Source of the DNA: a virus
DNA: 57,229 nt
Virus record (IMG/VR): IMGVR_UViG_3300005471_000018
Coordinates: 1 to 57,229 of that record
Strand: one strand, 5' to 3'
Made by a program: the position numbers and the translations under genes. The notes beneath the pieces are model-generated. The model saw nothing but the letters and a program-made list of their open reading frames with translations, was not told where the DNA came from and made no database searches. Shown piece after piece: positions 2,942 to 36,528 of the stretch (position 1 is the first letter of the stretch; the number at the start of each line of letters is the position of its first letter).

Positions 2942-3415
2942 ATGCGGCGCACAATCCAGATCATGGGTTGTGCGCCGCACGAGTTGGAATGGATCAGGGA
3001 ACACATGGAAGAGATCATCGACGCAACCGATGCGGCGTTTGCTGTCCAGGCCGACGGGGATATGCCGTTGGTGTGGTTTGAGCAGGTCGCCGCGCAGTTC
3101 GATTTGACGCCGCCGGTTATTGAGGACCCGGCCCCGTGGGAGTGGGACACCGACCCGCCGTTGGGGGTGTTGGTGCGTGAGATTGCTCAGCGTCTGCACC
3201 CGGGCGAGGATGTGACGGGTTGGCTTTATACGCAGCAGCAGCTGGCGTGGTATATCCAGGACCGGGACTTCGTTGATCAGCATCGGGAAGATCTTGAGGA
3301 GAGTCTCGCGCAGATGCGCACGGGTGAAGGTGTAGACGTTGATCCGGATGAGTTGCGGGCCGACGTCTTGGATGTGCAGGGGGCCGCTGATTGTGGTGAG
3401 GTACAACCCTCGTAG
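2942..3415 (+). CDS. Acidic protein of unknown function
   Basis: A 157-aa acidic, predicted helical protein rich in Trp and Glu/Asp. A second possible start lies at 2963. The 3' end overlaps the next small gene in another frame. No family recognised. Confidence 0.6.
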   Translation: MRRTIQIMGCAPHELEWIREHMEEIIDATDAAFAVQADGDMPLVWFEQVAAQFDLTPPVIEDPAPWEWDTDPPLGVLVREIAQRLHPGEDVTGWLYTQQQLAWYIQDRDFVDQHREDLEESLAQMRTGEGVDVDPDELRADVLDVQGAADCGEVQPS

Positions 3416-3536
3416 GGCGCTGGTGGGGTTGCTGGTGGTCCTGGCGGCGGCGGGGGTGTCGTTGATTTTTTTGTGCAGTGTCGCGTTTTGGGAGGTTGTT
3501 CCTTGCCCCATGATGATGAGTTCATGCGGCTGGTGA
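3393..3536 (+). CDS. Small membrane protein
   Basis: A 47-aa reading frame from a GTG at 3393 (or 3396), with one hydrophobic helix (VGLLVVLAAAGVSLIFL) after a short basic N-terminus. It overlaps the end of the preceding gene and the start of the next. Small single-pass proteins of this type are frequent in actinophages; function unknown. Confidence 0.45.
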   Translation: MVRYNPRRALVGLLVVLAAAGVSLIFLCSVAFWEVVPCPMMMSSCGW

Positions 3537-3625
3537 TCCATGATGCGGTGGTGCGCCGGATTGAGGCTAGGTGGCGTCTGCTGCGCCGCCGCAGACGTAG
3601 TTATGTGATGCGGAGGTGGTGGTGA
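3503..3625 (+). CDS. Very small basic protein
   Basis: A 40-aa frame starting at TTG 3503, directly behind a strong GGGAGG ribosome binding site. It is rich in Arg (a run of five near the C-terminus) and ends in a TGATG overlap with the next gene. Placement between tightly coupled genes is the main support. Confidence 0.4.
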   Translation: MPHDDEFMRLVIHDAVVRRIEARWRLLRRRRRSYVMRRWW

Positions 3626-4161
3626 TGTCGGGGTTTTATCCGGTGGCTGGCGAGGACCGGGCTGTGTTGGAGGCGTTGCGGGATGAGTTGAAAGCTCAGC
3701 GGCTGCAACGGAATTGGACGTATGGGCATGCTGCTGCGCAGGTGGATCGGTCGCATAATTTTCTGTATGAGATGGAGAATTTGCGGTCTGGTTTGAAAAT
3801 GGACAACCTGCAGTTATGGGCGTCTATATATGATTTGCGGATTGAGTTCAGCCTGGACGGGTTCTGGAATTTTGTCTGGCCCCACGACGAACTGACGATG
3901 CTCTACCAACTGTCCCGGCCCTTTGATGCCAAGGATTTTCAGCGGCTGTGGCTGGTTTCTGCGTTGCAGGCGTGGCGGGAAAGGCTTGGCATCACGTCGG
4001 CGGAGGTGGGTTATTGGATGGGGCTTACCGCCGGTGCGGTCACCGAGTGGGAACGCACGACGAGTAACCCGTTGATGTTGCGGGCTATGGCGCAGGCCCG
4101 GATGGTGAAGACTTCGGTGACGATGAAACTATGGAAACGAGAAGATTGGATATTCAAATGA
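3625..4161 (+). CDS. Double helix-turn-helix regulator (XRE-like)
   Basis: A 178-aa protein. Residues about 12-55 and 110-150 each look like an XRE-type HTH; the second contains G-I-T-S-A-E-V-G-Y-W-M-G-L-T. The ATG at 3625 is chosen because of a GGAGG box 8 nt upstream and a TGATG overlap with the preceding stop. It is likely a DNA-binding regulator of the early operon; targets unknown. Confidence 0.65.
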   Translation: MSGFYPVAGEDRAVLEALRDELKAQRLQRNWTYGHAAAQVDRSHNFLYEMENLRSGLKMDNLQLWASIYDLRIEFSLDGFWNFVWPHDELTMLYQLSRPFDAKDFQRLWLVSALQAWRERLGITSAEVGYWMGLTAGAVTEWERTTSNPLMLRAMAQARMVKTSVTMKLWKREDWIFK

Positions 4162-5263: not shown

Positions 5264-5716
5264 ATGAGTTGGCCCCAACTGCCCCAGGAACGGATAGCCG
5301 CCGCTACACACCGCGCTGTTGCCCGGGTGCTTTCCGGCGAACCATCGTCAAGTGTGGTCCCGGTGGGACCAGGTCAGGACAAAATCTGCGACCTTGACCA
5401 GCTCGGCGTGCTGTACGAAGAATTCGTCGCCCGCCATTCCCGCCACGCCGAAGACGAGCAGTGGCTCAAGGAGTTCAAGGCCCAGGTCAGGCAGTTCTCC
5501 GGCGACGCCAACGTGTACCGCTACCGGGGCCGTGTCGTGTTCACCGACGACCGCAACGGCCGCTTCTCCGTCAAAGAACTCGAATCCTTCGATCCTGACA
5601 TGGTGGCGCAGTACACCCGCATCGTTGCCAAAGAACAATTCGACGAAGACGCCTTCCGCAACGACCACCCGGAACTGTGGGAACGTCTGCGCGCCCAACG
5701 GTTCCTCGTCAAATAA
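5264..5716 (+). CDS. Unknown protein upstream of the ParB-like gene
   Basis: A 150-aa protein; ATG 5264 follows an AGGAGAG box. The C-terminal half is charged and helical. It lies immediately upstream of the ParB-like gene. No family recognised. Confidence 0.65.
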   Translation: MSWPQLPQERIAAATHRAVARVLSGEPSSSVVPVGPGQDKICDLDQLGVLYEEFVARHSRHAEDEQWLKEFKAQVRQFSGDANVYRYRGRVVFTDDRNGRFSVKELESFDPDMVAQYTRIVAKEQFDEDAFRNDHPELWERLRAQRFLVK

Positions 5717-5748
5717 ACCTACGCAACATCCGAGAGGAGAACGCAGAA

Positions 5749-6768
5749 ATGACCGAAGAAAGGGTGCCCCCAGCTGAACTGGTGCTGCGGGCGGATCCCG
5801 TCGACACACCCATGCTGTACTTCGTGGTGTGGGCCGACGGCCCTCTCGCCCGTGACCTGCTGCAATGGAACCAGGAACCCGAACTGGGCAAGGCGGGCAC
5901 CAACCGCAAAGCCTCCGACATCAAGGTCGCCGAGTACTGCGCCACCATGCTCGCCGACGAATGGCAAACCAACCCGCACCCAGTGGTGTTCTCCGAAACC
6001 GGCTGGCAGGAAGACGGCCAGCAGCGGCTCAAGGCCTTGGTGAAGGCGTCGCTGACCCGGCCCAACATCCGGGTTCCGCTGACGATTTGCATCAACGCCC
6101 CCGACGAGTCGCGGATGGTGATGGACCTCGGCAAACGCCGCACCCCGTCGGACTTCCTGAAGATGGCTGGGCAGTCCAACACTGTCGTCCTCGCGTCGGC
6201 GCTCAAGATGCTTTACAACTACGACCACACCCCCCGCACCGGCCCTGAGGTGTGGCGTAAAACCCGGTGGACGCCGACGCTGCAGGCCGAAGTCCTTGCC
6301 GCGCACCCGATGATCCGTGAAGGGATCAAGGCAGCGACGCGGTCTAAACATCTGCTGACTGTCGTGCCCGGCGCGGTGCTGTGGTATCTGATCTACCGGG
6401 CGATGGAGGACGGCGGCGAGAAGGCCAACTGGTTCTTCCGTGGCCTGGAACGCGGCACCAACCCCGACGAGCTCGACGCCCGTTACACGTTCCGTGAGGG
6501 TTTGGCCCGCGCCTCTCTGGTGCACCGTGACTGGGATTCGGCTGACTACCTTGGTATCGGCATCAAAGCGTTCAACGCGTGGGCTGTCGGCGAGAACAAG
6601 TGGGTGTTCGGTCTGCGTAAGAACGAACGCTTCCCGAAGGTCATCTCGGCGGCGCAGTCGCTGCCGCTGCAGAAGATCCTCACCGAGGCGGAGCTCAAGG
6701 CCATCGGCGACGCGACGAAGGAGATCAAGACCGGCGACAAGCCGTACGTGAAGTTTGAGCAGCCGTAA
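5749..6768 (+). CDS. ParB-like DNA-binding protein
   Basis: A 339-aa protein. Around residues 55-130 it carries the pattern of phage ParB/Srx-like domains: a helix, W-x-x-N-P-x-P-V-V-F, then DGQQRL (the usual DGxHRL/DGQQRL signature), then M-D-L-G-K-R-R-T-P-S-D-F. The rest is helical. In actinophages such proteins are usually annotated as ParB-like nuclease-domain proteins; a role in DNA binding or regulation is inferred. The start at 5749 is supported by GAGAGGAGA upstream. Confidence 0.7.
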   Translation: MTEERVPPAELVLRADPVDTPMLYFVVWADGPLARDLLQWNQEPELGKAGTNRKASDIKVAEYCATMLADEWQTNPHPVVFSETGWQEDGQQRLKALVKASLTRPNIRVPLTICINAPDESRMVMDLGKRRTPSDFLKMAGQSNTVVLASALKMLYNYDHTPRTGPEVWRKTRWTPTLQAEVLAAHPMIREGIKAATRSKHLLTVVPGAVLWYLIYRAMEDGGEKANWFFRGLERGTNPDELDARYTFREGLARASLVHRDWDSADYLGIGIKAFNAWAVGENKWVFGLRKNERFPKVISAAQSLPLQKILTEAELKAIGDATKEIKTGDKPYVKFEQP

Positions 6769-10895: not shown

Positions 10896-11558
10896 TCACA
10901 CGGTGGGGGCGACCACAACACGACGCCGTGAAATGGTGCCCGTCCCAGAGATCACCCGGTGGTACAAGGCGCAGTTGTACTGCGTGCCCGGCGTCAACCC
11001 GGAAACAAGATCAGTGTGTGAGGTGCGGTTGACGCCGGTGTTGTCGTTGCGGACTGTCCGGTCGTCTGAGACGGCTTGACCGGCGACCACTGTCCCCGAC
11101 GCTGGGCCTGGCCCGGTGGCGATCTGCGGCGAGATCAGGCAGATGATCGCCGAGCTTGCCGCGATCTCCGCCGTCCACGTGATCAAAACCTTGCCGCTGG
11201 GCGGCGCGATGAAAGCCACCGAACAAAACGAAGAGGGGCCTGCTGTGGTGTAGGACGTGGAGGTGGTGGTGTACGCCTCCTGAGCGAAGTTGGACACCGC
11301 ACCCCATGCGGTGTTCGCCGCCAAGGCCACCTCGCCGAGGACCAGCCACGACGAACCGTCTGCGCTGATCGCCGACTGCCCCAGCAACGCAACAACATCG
11401 CCTACCGCCGGGACATAAAACCCTGCGACACCAACGCTTTCAGAGTCGAACGTGCCGCCTTGCACGGACACGACAAGCGGGTTGACGCCGATGACGGTGC
11501 CGATACGCACCGTCGCGGGTTGCCCCCGGTCCTTGGATATTTGATCCAGAAAATTCAC
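10896..11558 (-). CDS. Minor tail protein, beta-rich
   Basis: A 220-aa protein at the distal end of the tail operon. The N-terminal part (I-G-T-V-x-G-V-N-P-L-V-V-S-V-Q-G, then V-P-A-V-G-D-V-V-A-L-L) resembles the small OB/beta-barrel of actinophage tail-tip proteins; the rest is Ser/Thr-rich beta structure. GTG 11558 overlaps the upstream stop (GTGA); TTG 11570 is an alternative. Receptor binding or tip assembly is inferred from position. Confidence 0.65.
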   Translation of the reverse strand: MNFLDQISKDRGQPATVRIGTVIGVNPLVVSVQGGTFDSESVGVAGFYVPAVGDVVALLGQSAISADGSSWLVLGEVALAANTAWGAVSNFAQEAYTTTSTSYTTAGPSSFCSVAFIAPPSGKVLITWTAEIAASSAIICLISPQIATGPGPASGTVVAGQAVSDDRTVRNDNTGVNRTSHTDLVSGLTPGTQYNCALYHRVISGTGTISRRRVVVAPTV

Positions 11559-34196: not shown

Positions 34197-34199
34197 CTG

Positions 34200-34463
34200 A
34201 TCACTTTATCAACTTAGGTCACTAGCTGGGGTTTTTGGTATTGTTCCAGGTGGGGTTATCGGCCTAAAGTTTCCGGGGTTACAGCTTGACGATCACGCCC
34301 CAGAAATGCCATGCTCTTACATGCAACACCACCCCGCACTGGGGGGCGGCAAGACCCCACCGCCACATTGGAGGGACGATGCCGCCGTTCCTTAAAAACT
34401 AAAGCGGGGTGCGGCCACCCTTGAAGCACGTGGACCGCACCACCATCACGAGGAGAGGTTGAG
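34200..34463. promoter_or_regulatory. Divergent region between terminase and DUF7873 genes
   Basis: This 264-nt gap separates the leftward structural operon from the rightward tRNA operon. It contains a possible 7-codon leader frame (M-P-P-F-L-K-N) at about 34379-34402 behind a GGAGGG box, and GC-rich inverted repeats on both sides (for example around 34404-34440). Promoters for both directions are expected here, but no clear consensus boxes could be assigned. Confidence 0.4.
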
Positions 34464-35198
34464 TTGAGACTCAATCAAATTCTTGCTGCGCTGAAGACGC
34501 ACAAGACAGACGCCAACACCGGCATCACCAGCGTGTACCACACGTTCCAGAAACCTGCACTGTTCGGTGGACATTCGCGCACCTACCAGCCCAAAGACGA
34601 AGAAGGCGAACAGCTTCCGTCCGAAAGCCAGCTGGTGCAGCAGAACGTCCCGGACCTTCTGAGCTCCCTGCGCCGCCACATGGAACGTCTGTTCGATGCT
34701 GTCGGCGCAGTCGACATGACCAACACCGTCGCCGCCGCCGACGTCGTCATGGATGGCACAGTCCTCCTGACGAACGTGCCGGTGCCGCATCTGCTGTTCC
34801 TGGAAAAGCAGCTCGCTGACCTGCACACCATGCTTGGCAAGCTGCCCACCCTGGACCCGGCGTTCACCTGGCACCGCAACAAGGACACGGACCTGAACCA
34901 AACCGACCCGGTCGAAACAATCCGCTCGAAGAAGATCAAGGAACACGTCGTTGCGGTCCCGCCGACCGACAAACACCCGGCGCAGGTGTATTTCAACGAA
35001 ACCGATGTGCCGGTGGGTACCTGGTCGACGGTGCGGCTGTCCGGCGCGGTCAGCGAGCAGAGCAAACGCAAGATGCTCGCCCGGGTCCTGCAACTGCAGG
35101 CAGCGGTCAAAGCGGCACGTGAAGCCGCCAACTCCGTCGAAGCGGTCACGTTCAACTCCGGGCAGATCCTGGGGTACGTGTTCGACGTCGACTGGTGA
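34464..35198 (+). CDS. DUF7873-family protein
   Basis: A 244-aa protein of a family widespread in phages and recognisable by S-R-T-Y-Q-P-K-D-E-E-G-E-Q-L-P, V-P-H-L-L-F-L-E-K-Q-L-A-D-L-H-T and K-H-P-A-Q-V. Biochemical role unknown. It starts at TTG 34464 behind AGGAGAGG and is the first gene of the tRNA operon. Confidence 0.8.
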   Translation: MRLNQILAALKTHKTDANTGITSVYHTFQKPALFGGHSRTYQPKDEEGEQLPSESQLVQQNVPDLLSSLRRHMERLFDAVGAVDMTNTVAAADVVMDGTVLLTNVPVPHLLFLEKQLADLHTMLGKLPTLDPAFTWHRNKDTDLNQTDPVETIRSKKIKEHVVAVPPTDKHPAQVYFNETDVPVGTWSTVRLSGAVSEQSKRKMLARVLQLQAAVKAAREAANSVEAVTFNSGQILGYVFDVDW

Positions 35199-35207
35199 CA
35201 TAGACTC

Positions 35208-35224
35208 CCCGGCCTTGCCGGGGT
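35208..35224 (+). terminator. Short GC hairpin after the DUF7873 gene
   Basis: A perfect 7-bp stem (35208-35214 with 35218-35224) and 3-nt loop lie 10 nt after the stop at 35198. It has no T-run, so it may stabilise or process the mRNA instead of terminating it. Confidence 0.4.
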
Positions 35225-35260
35225 GAGCACAAGCTGAAACTCAAGTTGACGGGTCAGATC

Positions 35261-35353
35261 TGACAGCTTCGCGGTGACAATGTCCAGGTTCGAGTCCTGG
35301 CCGGGGTTCGTGCCCCGGTAGCCCAATTGGTAGAGGCGGCTAGAAGCTACTCA
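35261..35353 (+). ncRNA. Permuted tRNA-like element A (possible YrlA-type Y RNA)
   Basis: Order of parts is reversed relative to a tRNA. First comes a T-arm (35284-35300, loop TTCGAGT), then the 3' acceptor strand (35301-35307), a 4-nt loop, the 5' acceptor strand (35312-35318, GCCCCGG), TA, and a D-arm (from 35321). Flanking sequences pair as a terminal stem: 35261-35263 and 35265-35270 with 35343-35348 and 35351-35353, leaving small bulges. No anticodon arm can be formed. The layout resembles YrlA bacterial Y RNAs, which mimic tRNA. Confidence 0.45.
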
Positions 35354-35402
35354 AGTTCTTGCTCCAATTTGAATTCAGCCCGCCGGAACCTACATCGAAG
35401 TC

Positions 35403-35513
35403 GTTACAGGCGAGGCACTTGTGGTTGGGGGTTCGATTCCCTCCCGCCCCTCCAAACTCGTGGGGCGGTAGCTCAACGGTAGAGCGGCATTGCATTCAAA
35501 CGTGACCTGTAAC
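35403..35513 (+). ncRNA. Permuted tRNA-like element B (possible YrlA-type Y RNA)
   Basis: T-arm 35427-35443 (loop TTCGATT), acceptor strands 35444-35450 and 35462-35468 (perfect 7 bp) closed by an 11-nt loop, TA, and D-arm 35471-35485. The ends pair: 35403-35410 with 35106-type complement at 35506-35513 (8 bp), then 35416-35418 with 35502-35504 and 35419-35421 with 35497-35499, separated by bulges. There is no anticodon arm. The terminal bulged stem is where Ro60-type proteins bind in Y RNAs; binding here is inference. Confidence 0.5.
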
Positions 35514-35543
35514 CCAGCGGCGGTAGGGGAAGAGCTACGGGTT

Positions 35544-35618
35544 TCTGACTTAGCCCAGTTGGAAAGGGCATCGGTCCTGAGGAACCGAAGATCGCAGGTT
35601 CGAATCCTGCAGTCAAAA
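35544..35618 (+). tRNA. tRNA-Leu(GAG), short variable loop
   Basis: Cloverleaf with a TCTGACT/AGTCAAA acceptor (one mismatch). The anticodon stem TCGGT/ACCGA is perfect only if the loop has 8 nt (CCTGAGGA); a 7-nt loop needs a mismatched pair. The variable loop is of the short type, unusual for Leu. Confidence 0.75.
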
Positions 35619-35628
35619 ACACTTTTAT

Positions 35629-35658
35629 CGGGGGGCCTCCAGGGTAGGAGGCTCCCCG
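35629..35658 (+). repeat. Inter-tRNA hairpin
   Basis: A 12-bp stem with one G-T pair (35629-35640 with 35647-35658) and 6-nt loop between two tRNA genes. See the other spacer hairpins of this array. Confidence 0.7.
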
Positions 35659-35665
35659 AGCCAAC

Positions 35666-35740
35666 CGGGATATGGCCAAATTTGGTAAGGCACCTGCTTT
35701 GGGAGCAGGCGATTTGGGAGTTCGAATCTCTCTATCCCGA
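35666..35740 (+). tRNA. tRNA-Pro(TGG)
   Basis: Perfect CGGGATA/TATCCCG acceptor, anticodon stem CCTGC/GCAGG with loop TTTGGGA, regular T-arm. Confidence 0.93.
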
Positions 35741-36379: not shown

Positions 36380-36452
36380 CCCCTGGTAGCTCAACGGACA
36401 GAGCGCCCGCCTTCTAAGCGGGTGGATGTAGGTTCGACTCCTGTCCAGGGGA
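36380..36452 (+). tRNA. tRNA-Arg(TCT)
   Basis: Perfect CCCCTGG/CCAGGGG acceptor, anticodon stem CCCGC/GCGGG with loop CTTCTAA. Confidence 0.94.
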
Positions 36453-36456
36453 TCAA

Positions 36457-36528
36457 CCCCTTGTAGCTCAACGGAAAGAGCGCCCTTCTCCTAAGAGGGA
36501 TGTCCAGGTTCGATTCCTGGTGGGGGGA
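36457..36528 (+). tRNA. tRNA-Arg(CCT)
   Basis: Acceptor CCCCTTG/TGGGGGG with wobble pairs, anticodon loop CTCCTAA, regular T-arm. It starts 4 nt after tRNA-Arg(TCT). Confidence 0.92.

Follow-up and report, generated by a model that had tools for sequence, protein, structure and literature searches.

What is encoded at the head of the tRNA array in the viral record IMGVR_UViG_3300005471_000018, analysed here over its full 57,229 nucleotides (the window)? An earlier note on this DNA described two permuted tRNA-like RNAs that resemble YrlA-type Y RNAs. Ro60 proteins and Y RNAs have long been known, and their function in bacteria is, to our knowledge, unsettled. The two modules, A and B, and their place ahead of 32 tRNA genes (ARAGORN) stand, but they make better sense as two tips of a single conserved RNA of ~320 nt (35207-35529), which starts just 3' of a gene for a DUF7873 protein on the same strand. 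This is a real, conserved and uncatalogued RNA with a candidate protein partner; its tips are YrlA-like and, by linkage, it is not a Ro60 Y RNA.

Two permuted tips on one RNA

Both modules run in the order T-arm, 7-bp acceptor, TA and D-arm, as read from the sequence and recovered by our module scanner. In module A (35284-35337) the T-arm CCAGG-TTCGAGT-CCTGG (35284-35300) is followed by the acceptor CCGGGGT/tcgt/GCCCCGG (35301-35318), which includes one G-T pair and is closed by a 4-nt loop, and then by TA and a D-arm at 35321-35337. Module B (35427-35485) has its T-arm at 35427-35443, the acceptor CCGCCCC/GGGGCGG at 35444-35468 with an 11-nt loop that starts TCCA, and then TA and a D-arm at 35471-35485. 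The T-arms have 5 bp each and a TTCGA loop. Neither module has an anticodon arm, and no tRNA is called at 35284-35485 by ARAGORN or by the Rfam tRNA model (RF00005). In the permuted order, the G-T pair of A and the missing anticodon arm, the earlier description was accurate.

Are the modules more than chance? The strict scanner made 4 hits in 150 simulated windows, against two adjacent hits in the real one. The folding energy of the full elements is no better than that of shuffled sequences, and as the z-scores are near zero (-0.15 and -0.47) the minimum free energy (MFE) is no evidence for them. The strongest support is that relatives carry both modules in the corresponding position and show compensatory changes in them. 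We aligned 15 B domains, leaving the window out (alignment A4), under a structure of basal helix, outer helix, anticodon-position stem, T-stem, acceptor and D-stem. Standard pairs fill 90.6% of the cells, against 71.7% after shuffling and 38-46% after sliding, and 31 of the 37 pairs change on both sides; the observed values were reached by none of 500 shuffles. The scanner selected on the T-stem and acceptor, but not on the outer helices. Pairing is 100% in the basal helix of B, where 5 of 6 pairs vary on both sides, 92.6% in the outer helix, where 8 of 9 do, and 59% in the anticodon-position stem. In an alignment-free test, the anticodon-position stems of A and B and the outer helix of B, all unused in locus selection, match their own partner strand better than those of other loci (0 of 2000 permutations). 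R1, a covariance model built from A4 and hence without the window, matches domain B of the window over its full length (model positions 1-140) at 56.7 bits; the E-value is 1.6e-10 when 329 kb are searched and 2.7e-11 for a search of its own record. Module A scores 30.4 bits with R1.

The RNA, all on the plus strand, opens with a G+C-rich hairpin, CCCCGGC-ctt-GCCGGGG (35207-35223), a putative 5' boundary or processing hairpin with counterparts after the DUF7873 stop in four other loci (L151, L154, L184 and L171). The 5' core strand of the first domain, AAGCTGAAACTCAAGTTGACG (35231-35251), is kept in the close relative L088, in the IMG/VR relatives and in Streptomyces; though conserved in sequence, it does not covary with its presumed partner. 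Tip A (35265-35348) sets the stem AGCTTC/GAAGCT (35265-35270 with 35343-35348, from the MFE fold) around module A, and between the tips lies a second core strand, ACTCAAGTTCTTGCTCCAATTTGAATTCAGCC (35349-35380), whose motif CTCGCTCCA/CTTGCTCCA is conserved in nearly all homologues. Domain B (35386-35529) consists of the basal helix CCTAC/GTAGG, an ATCGA motif, the 8-bp helix GTTACAGG/CCTGTAAC (35403-35410 with 35506-35513) and the permuted tRNA tip. From the bulged 8+3+3 outer stem that had been drawn for B, the 8-bp helix and a CAC/GTG segment are present, but the third segment, TTG/CAA, is lost in L088; outer pairing, claimed for both elements, holds for B and shrinks in A to AGCTTC/GAAGCT. 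The 3' internal loop of domain B has CCAGCGGCG instead of CTTAAACGTG, which L088 lacks as well. CTTAAACGTG is frequent, not invariant, among DUF7873-linked RNAs, of which the window represents a divergent branch.

L088, whose DNA is ~80% identical, has B and carries a plain hairpin as its A tip, and the same is seen in L151, L154 and L184 (some Streptomyces), where the rest of the RNA is conserved. Because module A is absent from L088 and some others, A is an optional tip and no separate gene; plain A tips in an otherwise conserved RNA mark the tRNA mimic as a cap that a hairpin of the larger RNA may have or lack. The first tRNA of the array (35543-35620) has an anticodon that ARAGORN leaves undefined, as has its counterpart in L088.

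Linkage with DUF7873 in phages and chromosomes

What accompanies this RNA elsewhere? The gene directly upstream (34464-35198, plus strand), absent from the earlier note, encodes a protein of 244 aa that matches DUF7873 (Pfam PF25283, E 1.6e-85). A search of IMG/VR with the protein gave seven contigs at 43-47% identity. In each, one or more permuted modules closely follow DUF7873; L010 is the only contig without two. In a pattern search of IMG/VR, a strict single DNA pattern matched nothing and a gapped pattern found many permuted modules. The same cassette is present in Gordonia phages Phendrix, Keelan and Ronaldo, Arthrobacter phage Racecar, Rhodococcus phage NiceHouse, Pseudanabaena phage PA-SR01, a Klebsiella jumbo phage, two Rhizobium phages and a Vibrio phage. 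In annotated phages the modules mostly sit in an unannotated gap after DUF7873; by strict scan, both Rhizobium phages, the Vibrio phage and Ronaldo have one module only. Near its cassette Phendrix also has a transfer-messenger RNA (tmRNA) gene in its tRNA array (L136:1063-1591, Rfam tmRNA 89 bits) that is not listed among the features of the record. In a Microcoleus phage (L142, ~5550-5900), a likely divergent copy of the RNA lies one gene from DUF7873, followed by more T-arm-like repeats.

The cassette also occurs in bacterial chromosomes, including those of many soil actinobacteria. A scan of genomes gave at least 437 DUF7873 loci. In the best 80 of these, from Streptomyces, Streptacidiphilus, Actinomadura, Actinospica and an unclassified actinobacterium, DUF7873 is in every case followed by one or more strict modules. 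Across 101 cassette loci, the scanner found a single module in 31. We measured the linkage in 61 genomes related to S. lavendulae, where it is near-perfect. DUF7873 is present in 32 of them (33 genes) and every gene has an R1 match downstream within ~500 nt; 31 of these matches cover the full length (E below 1e-19), the other two are shorter. Among the 29 genomes without DUF7873 none has a full-length R1 match, only short, module-level matches or none. Presence across the 61 is patchy, and one genome (G458) has two copies each of DUF7873 and of the RNA. Conserved neighbours beyond the cassette were not evident in the few loci examined. Streptomyces-related genomes, whether they carry DUF7873 or not (G424, G434, G436, G440, G447, G452, G453 and others), repeatedly show a second, conserved R1 match (positions 21-119, 42-46 bits), which is perhaps TROVE-linked or a third permuted RNA family.

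What kind of protein is DUF7873? Its AlphaFold2 (AF2) model (predicted local distance difference test, pLDDT, 80.7) has no Foldseek match at E <= 0.001 among PDB and viral models, and a sequence search of the PDB gave weak 14-3-3 matches and nothing else. A likeness to TolC (best VIA-align Z 7.7, root-mean-square deviation 13.5, 159 aligned) was taken as a helical-bundle coincidence. Our literature search found no mention of DUF7873.

Cis element, Ro60 ligand or tRNA?

Does the RNA need a particle at all? It could be part of the DUF7873 mRNA, a regulatory 3' element that acts in cis, for autoregulation, processing by tRNA enzymes or mRNA stability. Gene and RNA always share a strand, with the RNA downstream, in most cases by 150-450 nt, and co-transcription is possible because no sigma-70-like promoter was found at 34197-35700. 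However, a recurring hairpin stands between the open reading frame and the RNA, the Microcoleus phage has another gene between DUF7873 and the likely RNA copy, and two elaborate tRNA mimics are more than an mRNA end needs. We consider this explanation unlikely.

Slightly less probable again is that the modules are ordinary YrlA Y RNAs bound by Ro60 or Rsr supplied by the host. Their permuted topology is identical to that of YrlA (RF02553), which is also the best-scoring known Rfam family for the window RNA, with 39.2 bits for B full-length (35404-35515, E 9e-9 per 57 kb) and 28 bits for A over the module only (model positions 30-81). The YrlA resemblance noted earlier holds in topology and in best family, but both scores fall short of the gathering score of 69, a cut-off that separates poorly because TROVE-linked phage RNAs (31-48 bits) fall below it too and score little better than the window RNA. 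As the earlier note stated, no Ro60 with a TROVE domain is encoded in the window record, which is a fragment. TROVE is also missing from 9 of the 10 phage records with the DUF7873 cassette, so that in most phages the cassette is independent of Ro60; in four DUF7873 host genomes tested, it is present in two and missing from two. Tested as the RNA's partner, Ro60 is thus mostly absent, the constant neighbour being DUF7873 instead, and the suggestion of a Ro60 Y RNA served by the host is left unsupported. Deinobacterium chartae, a control genome from the Deinococcales, has both DUF7873 and TROVE. A link of the cassette with RtcB was rejected, RtcB being missing from 9 of the 10 phage records.

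RNAs that do stand beside TROVE allow a direct comparison. Ten of 16 contigs picked for permuted modules have TROVE (L019, L038, L055, L068-L070, L072, L073, L084 and L119) and, L088 excluded, none of the other 15 has DUF7873. The TROVE-linked RNAs share the permuted module and the YrlA score range, but have no DUF7873, carry GCGnAG, TACTTC and CTCG motifs of their own, and have an extra anticodon-arm-like hairpin before the T-arm. Used as negatives for R1, they match, where they match, in the module region only. The outer-stem motifs of the two sets differ, although the phage Ro60-binding motif itself is not independently defined. In the phage contig L009 both systems occur (3231-3898 and 11055-11259): three permuted modules lie near its TROVE gene, and DUF7873 with a pair of its own stands ~5 kb away. 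The anticodon-arm-like hairpin is found in L069:4447, L119:7341, L072 (minus strand, near 1067), L068:7197 and L038:1428, an example being TTCTC-CTTCTAA-GAGAG with a 5-nt variable loop; taken together, the parts amount to a whole tRNA whose permutation point lies between positions 26 and 27, with apparent anticodons TCT, GAT, CAT, GTT and GCT.

Circularly permuted tRNA genes exist in algae and archaea, and it is very improbable that the modules of the window are genes of this kind, spliced into functional tRNAs. The T, acceptor, variable and D parts resemble those of a tRNA and several acceptor loops start with (A/T)CCA; however, the anticodon arm and loop are not conserved, long conserved strands occupy the place of the anticodon loop, many acceptor loops are 4-7 nt long without CCA, and module A is dispensable. 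The titles and abstracts that our literature search returned appear to contain no account of permuted tRNA genes in phages. The modules can hardly be debris left by tandem tRNA genes whose acceptors are complementary: one such pair, the tRNA-Arg genes at 36400-36515, does give a false YrlA match (29.4 bits), which calls for caution when models are run over tRNA arrays, but only one tRNA junction in the window reaches 6 acceptor pairs, and conserved position, covariation and presence in chromosomes speak against debris.

A candidate Ro60-independent particle and its known counterparts

What might the cassette do? We think it probable that the RNA is a YrlA-like tRNA mimic in a Ro60-independent ribonucleoprotein (RNP) with DUF7873. 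On balance, and with less confidence, we lean towards a broader reading in which Y-RNA-like RNPs include a second class that does without Ro60 and has DUF7873 as its protein; the one or two permuted mimics of its RNA would engage tRNA-handling or tRNA-cleaving enzymes, in phages of several bacterial phyla and in actinobacterial chromosomes. The cassette is a two-part module, a DUF7873 gene followed by a structured non-coding RNA with two hairpin domains. The conserved internal sequence of each hairpin is likely to be the protein-binding part, which DUF7873 would bind as Ro60 binds Y RNA. The tRNA-like tips may present to, or compete for, enzymes such as an exoribonuclease, modification enzymes or anticodon nucleases, for which tips without an anticodon would be uncuttable mimics. 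A function as decoy or tether is a tentative and rather doubtful idea. The tRNA-like domain of YrlA has been proposed to inhibit an anticodon nuclease (PMC7790460), and a Y RNA tethers polynucleotide phosphorylase (PNPase) with Deinococcus Rsr (PMC7790460). An RNA ligase gene (PF09414, 39125-40135) lies inside the tRNA array of the window, as expected for tRNA repair. With the cassette heading an array of 32 tRNAs and an RNA ligase within it, the most likely benefit for the phage would be that its tRNAs are protected or serviced during infection.

Several observations weigh against this proposal. The role in tRNA protection may be wrong, as the chromosomal cassettes of Streptomyces are not seen in tRNA arrays. 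DUF7873 is slightly acidic (isoelectric point, pI, 5.6-6.8), and its model has no recognisable fold and resembles no known RNA-binding protein. The two strands assigned to the outer helix of A keep their sequence and gave no covariation in the permutation test; of the compensatory changes looked for in the outer stems of both elements, those in B were found. Domain B of the window is itself a divergent member, its R1 score standing well below the 100-144 bits of most Streptomyces copies. And since the genomes are related, co-occurrence in 32 of 32 overstates the number of independent events.

If the proposal is right, a parallel particle has been built on an unrelated protein with the same permuted mimic, which would make the mimic itself what is used. 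The DUF7873 family would also gain a function, as would an RNA family not called by Rfam. Protein and RNA can be tested in Streptomyces, which grows easily, and in sequenced phages (Phendrix, Racecar, NiceHouse).

How does the RNA compare with known systems? The permuted tmRNA (RF04321) and cyanobacterial tmRNA (RF01851) likewise place T-arm and acceptor ahead of the 5' acceptor strand, but the window scores 18.5 bits against a cut-off of 47 for the former and 21.2 against 70 for the latter, and its D-arm has a real stem; ARAGORN reports no tmRNA in the window. With the circularly permuted tRNA genes of algae and archaea the modules share the order of their parts; they differ in that they have no anticodon loop, no splice motif was seen in them, and one module is optional. 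The closest counterpart is YrlA, likewise a paired-end hairpin capped by a tRNA mimic that runs from T-arm through looped acceptor to D-arm, beside a gene for a presumed protein partner. Unlike YrlA, the RNA described here stands next to DUF7873 and not TROVE, carries two tips in one RNA, has the outer motifs ATCGACCG / CTTAAACGTG and CTCGCTCCA in its DUF7873-linked family, and scores below the YrlA gathering threshold.
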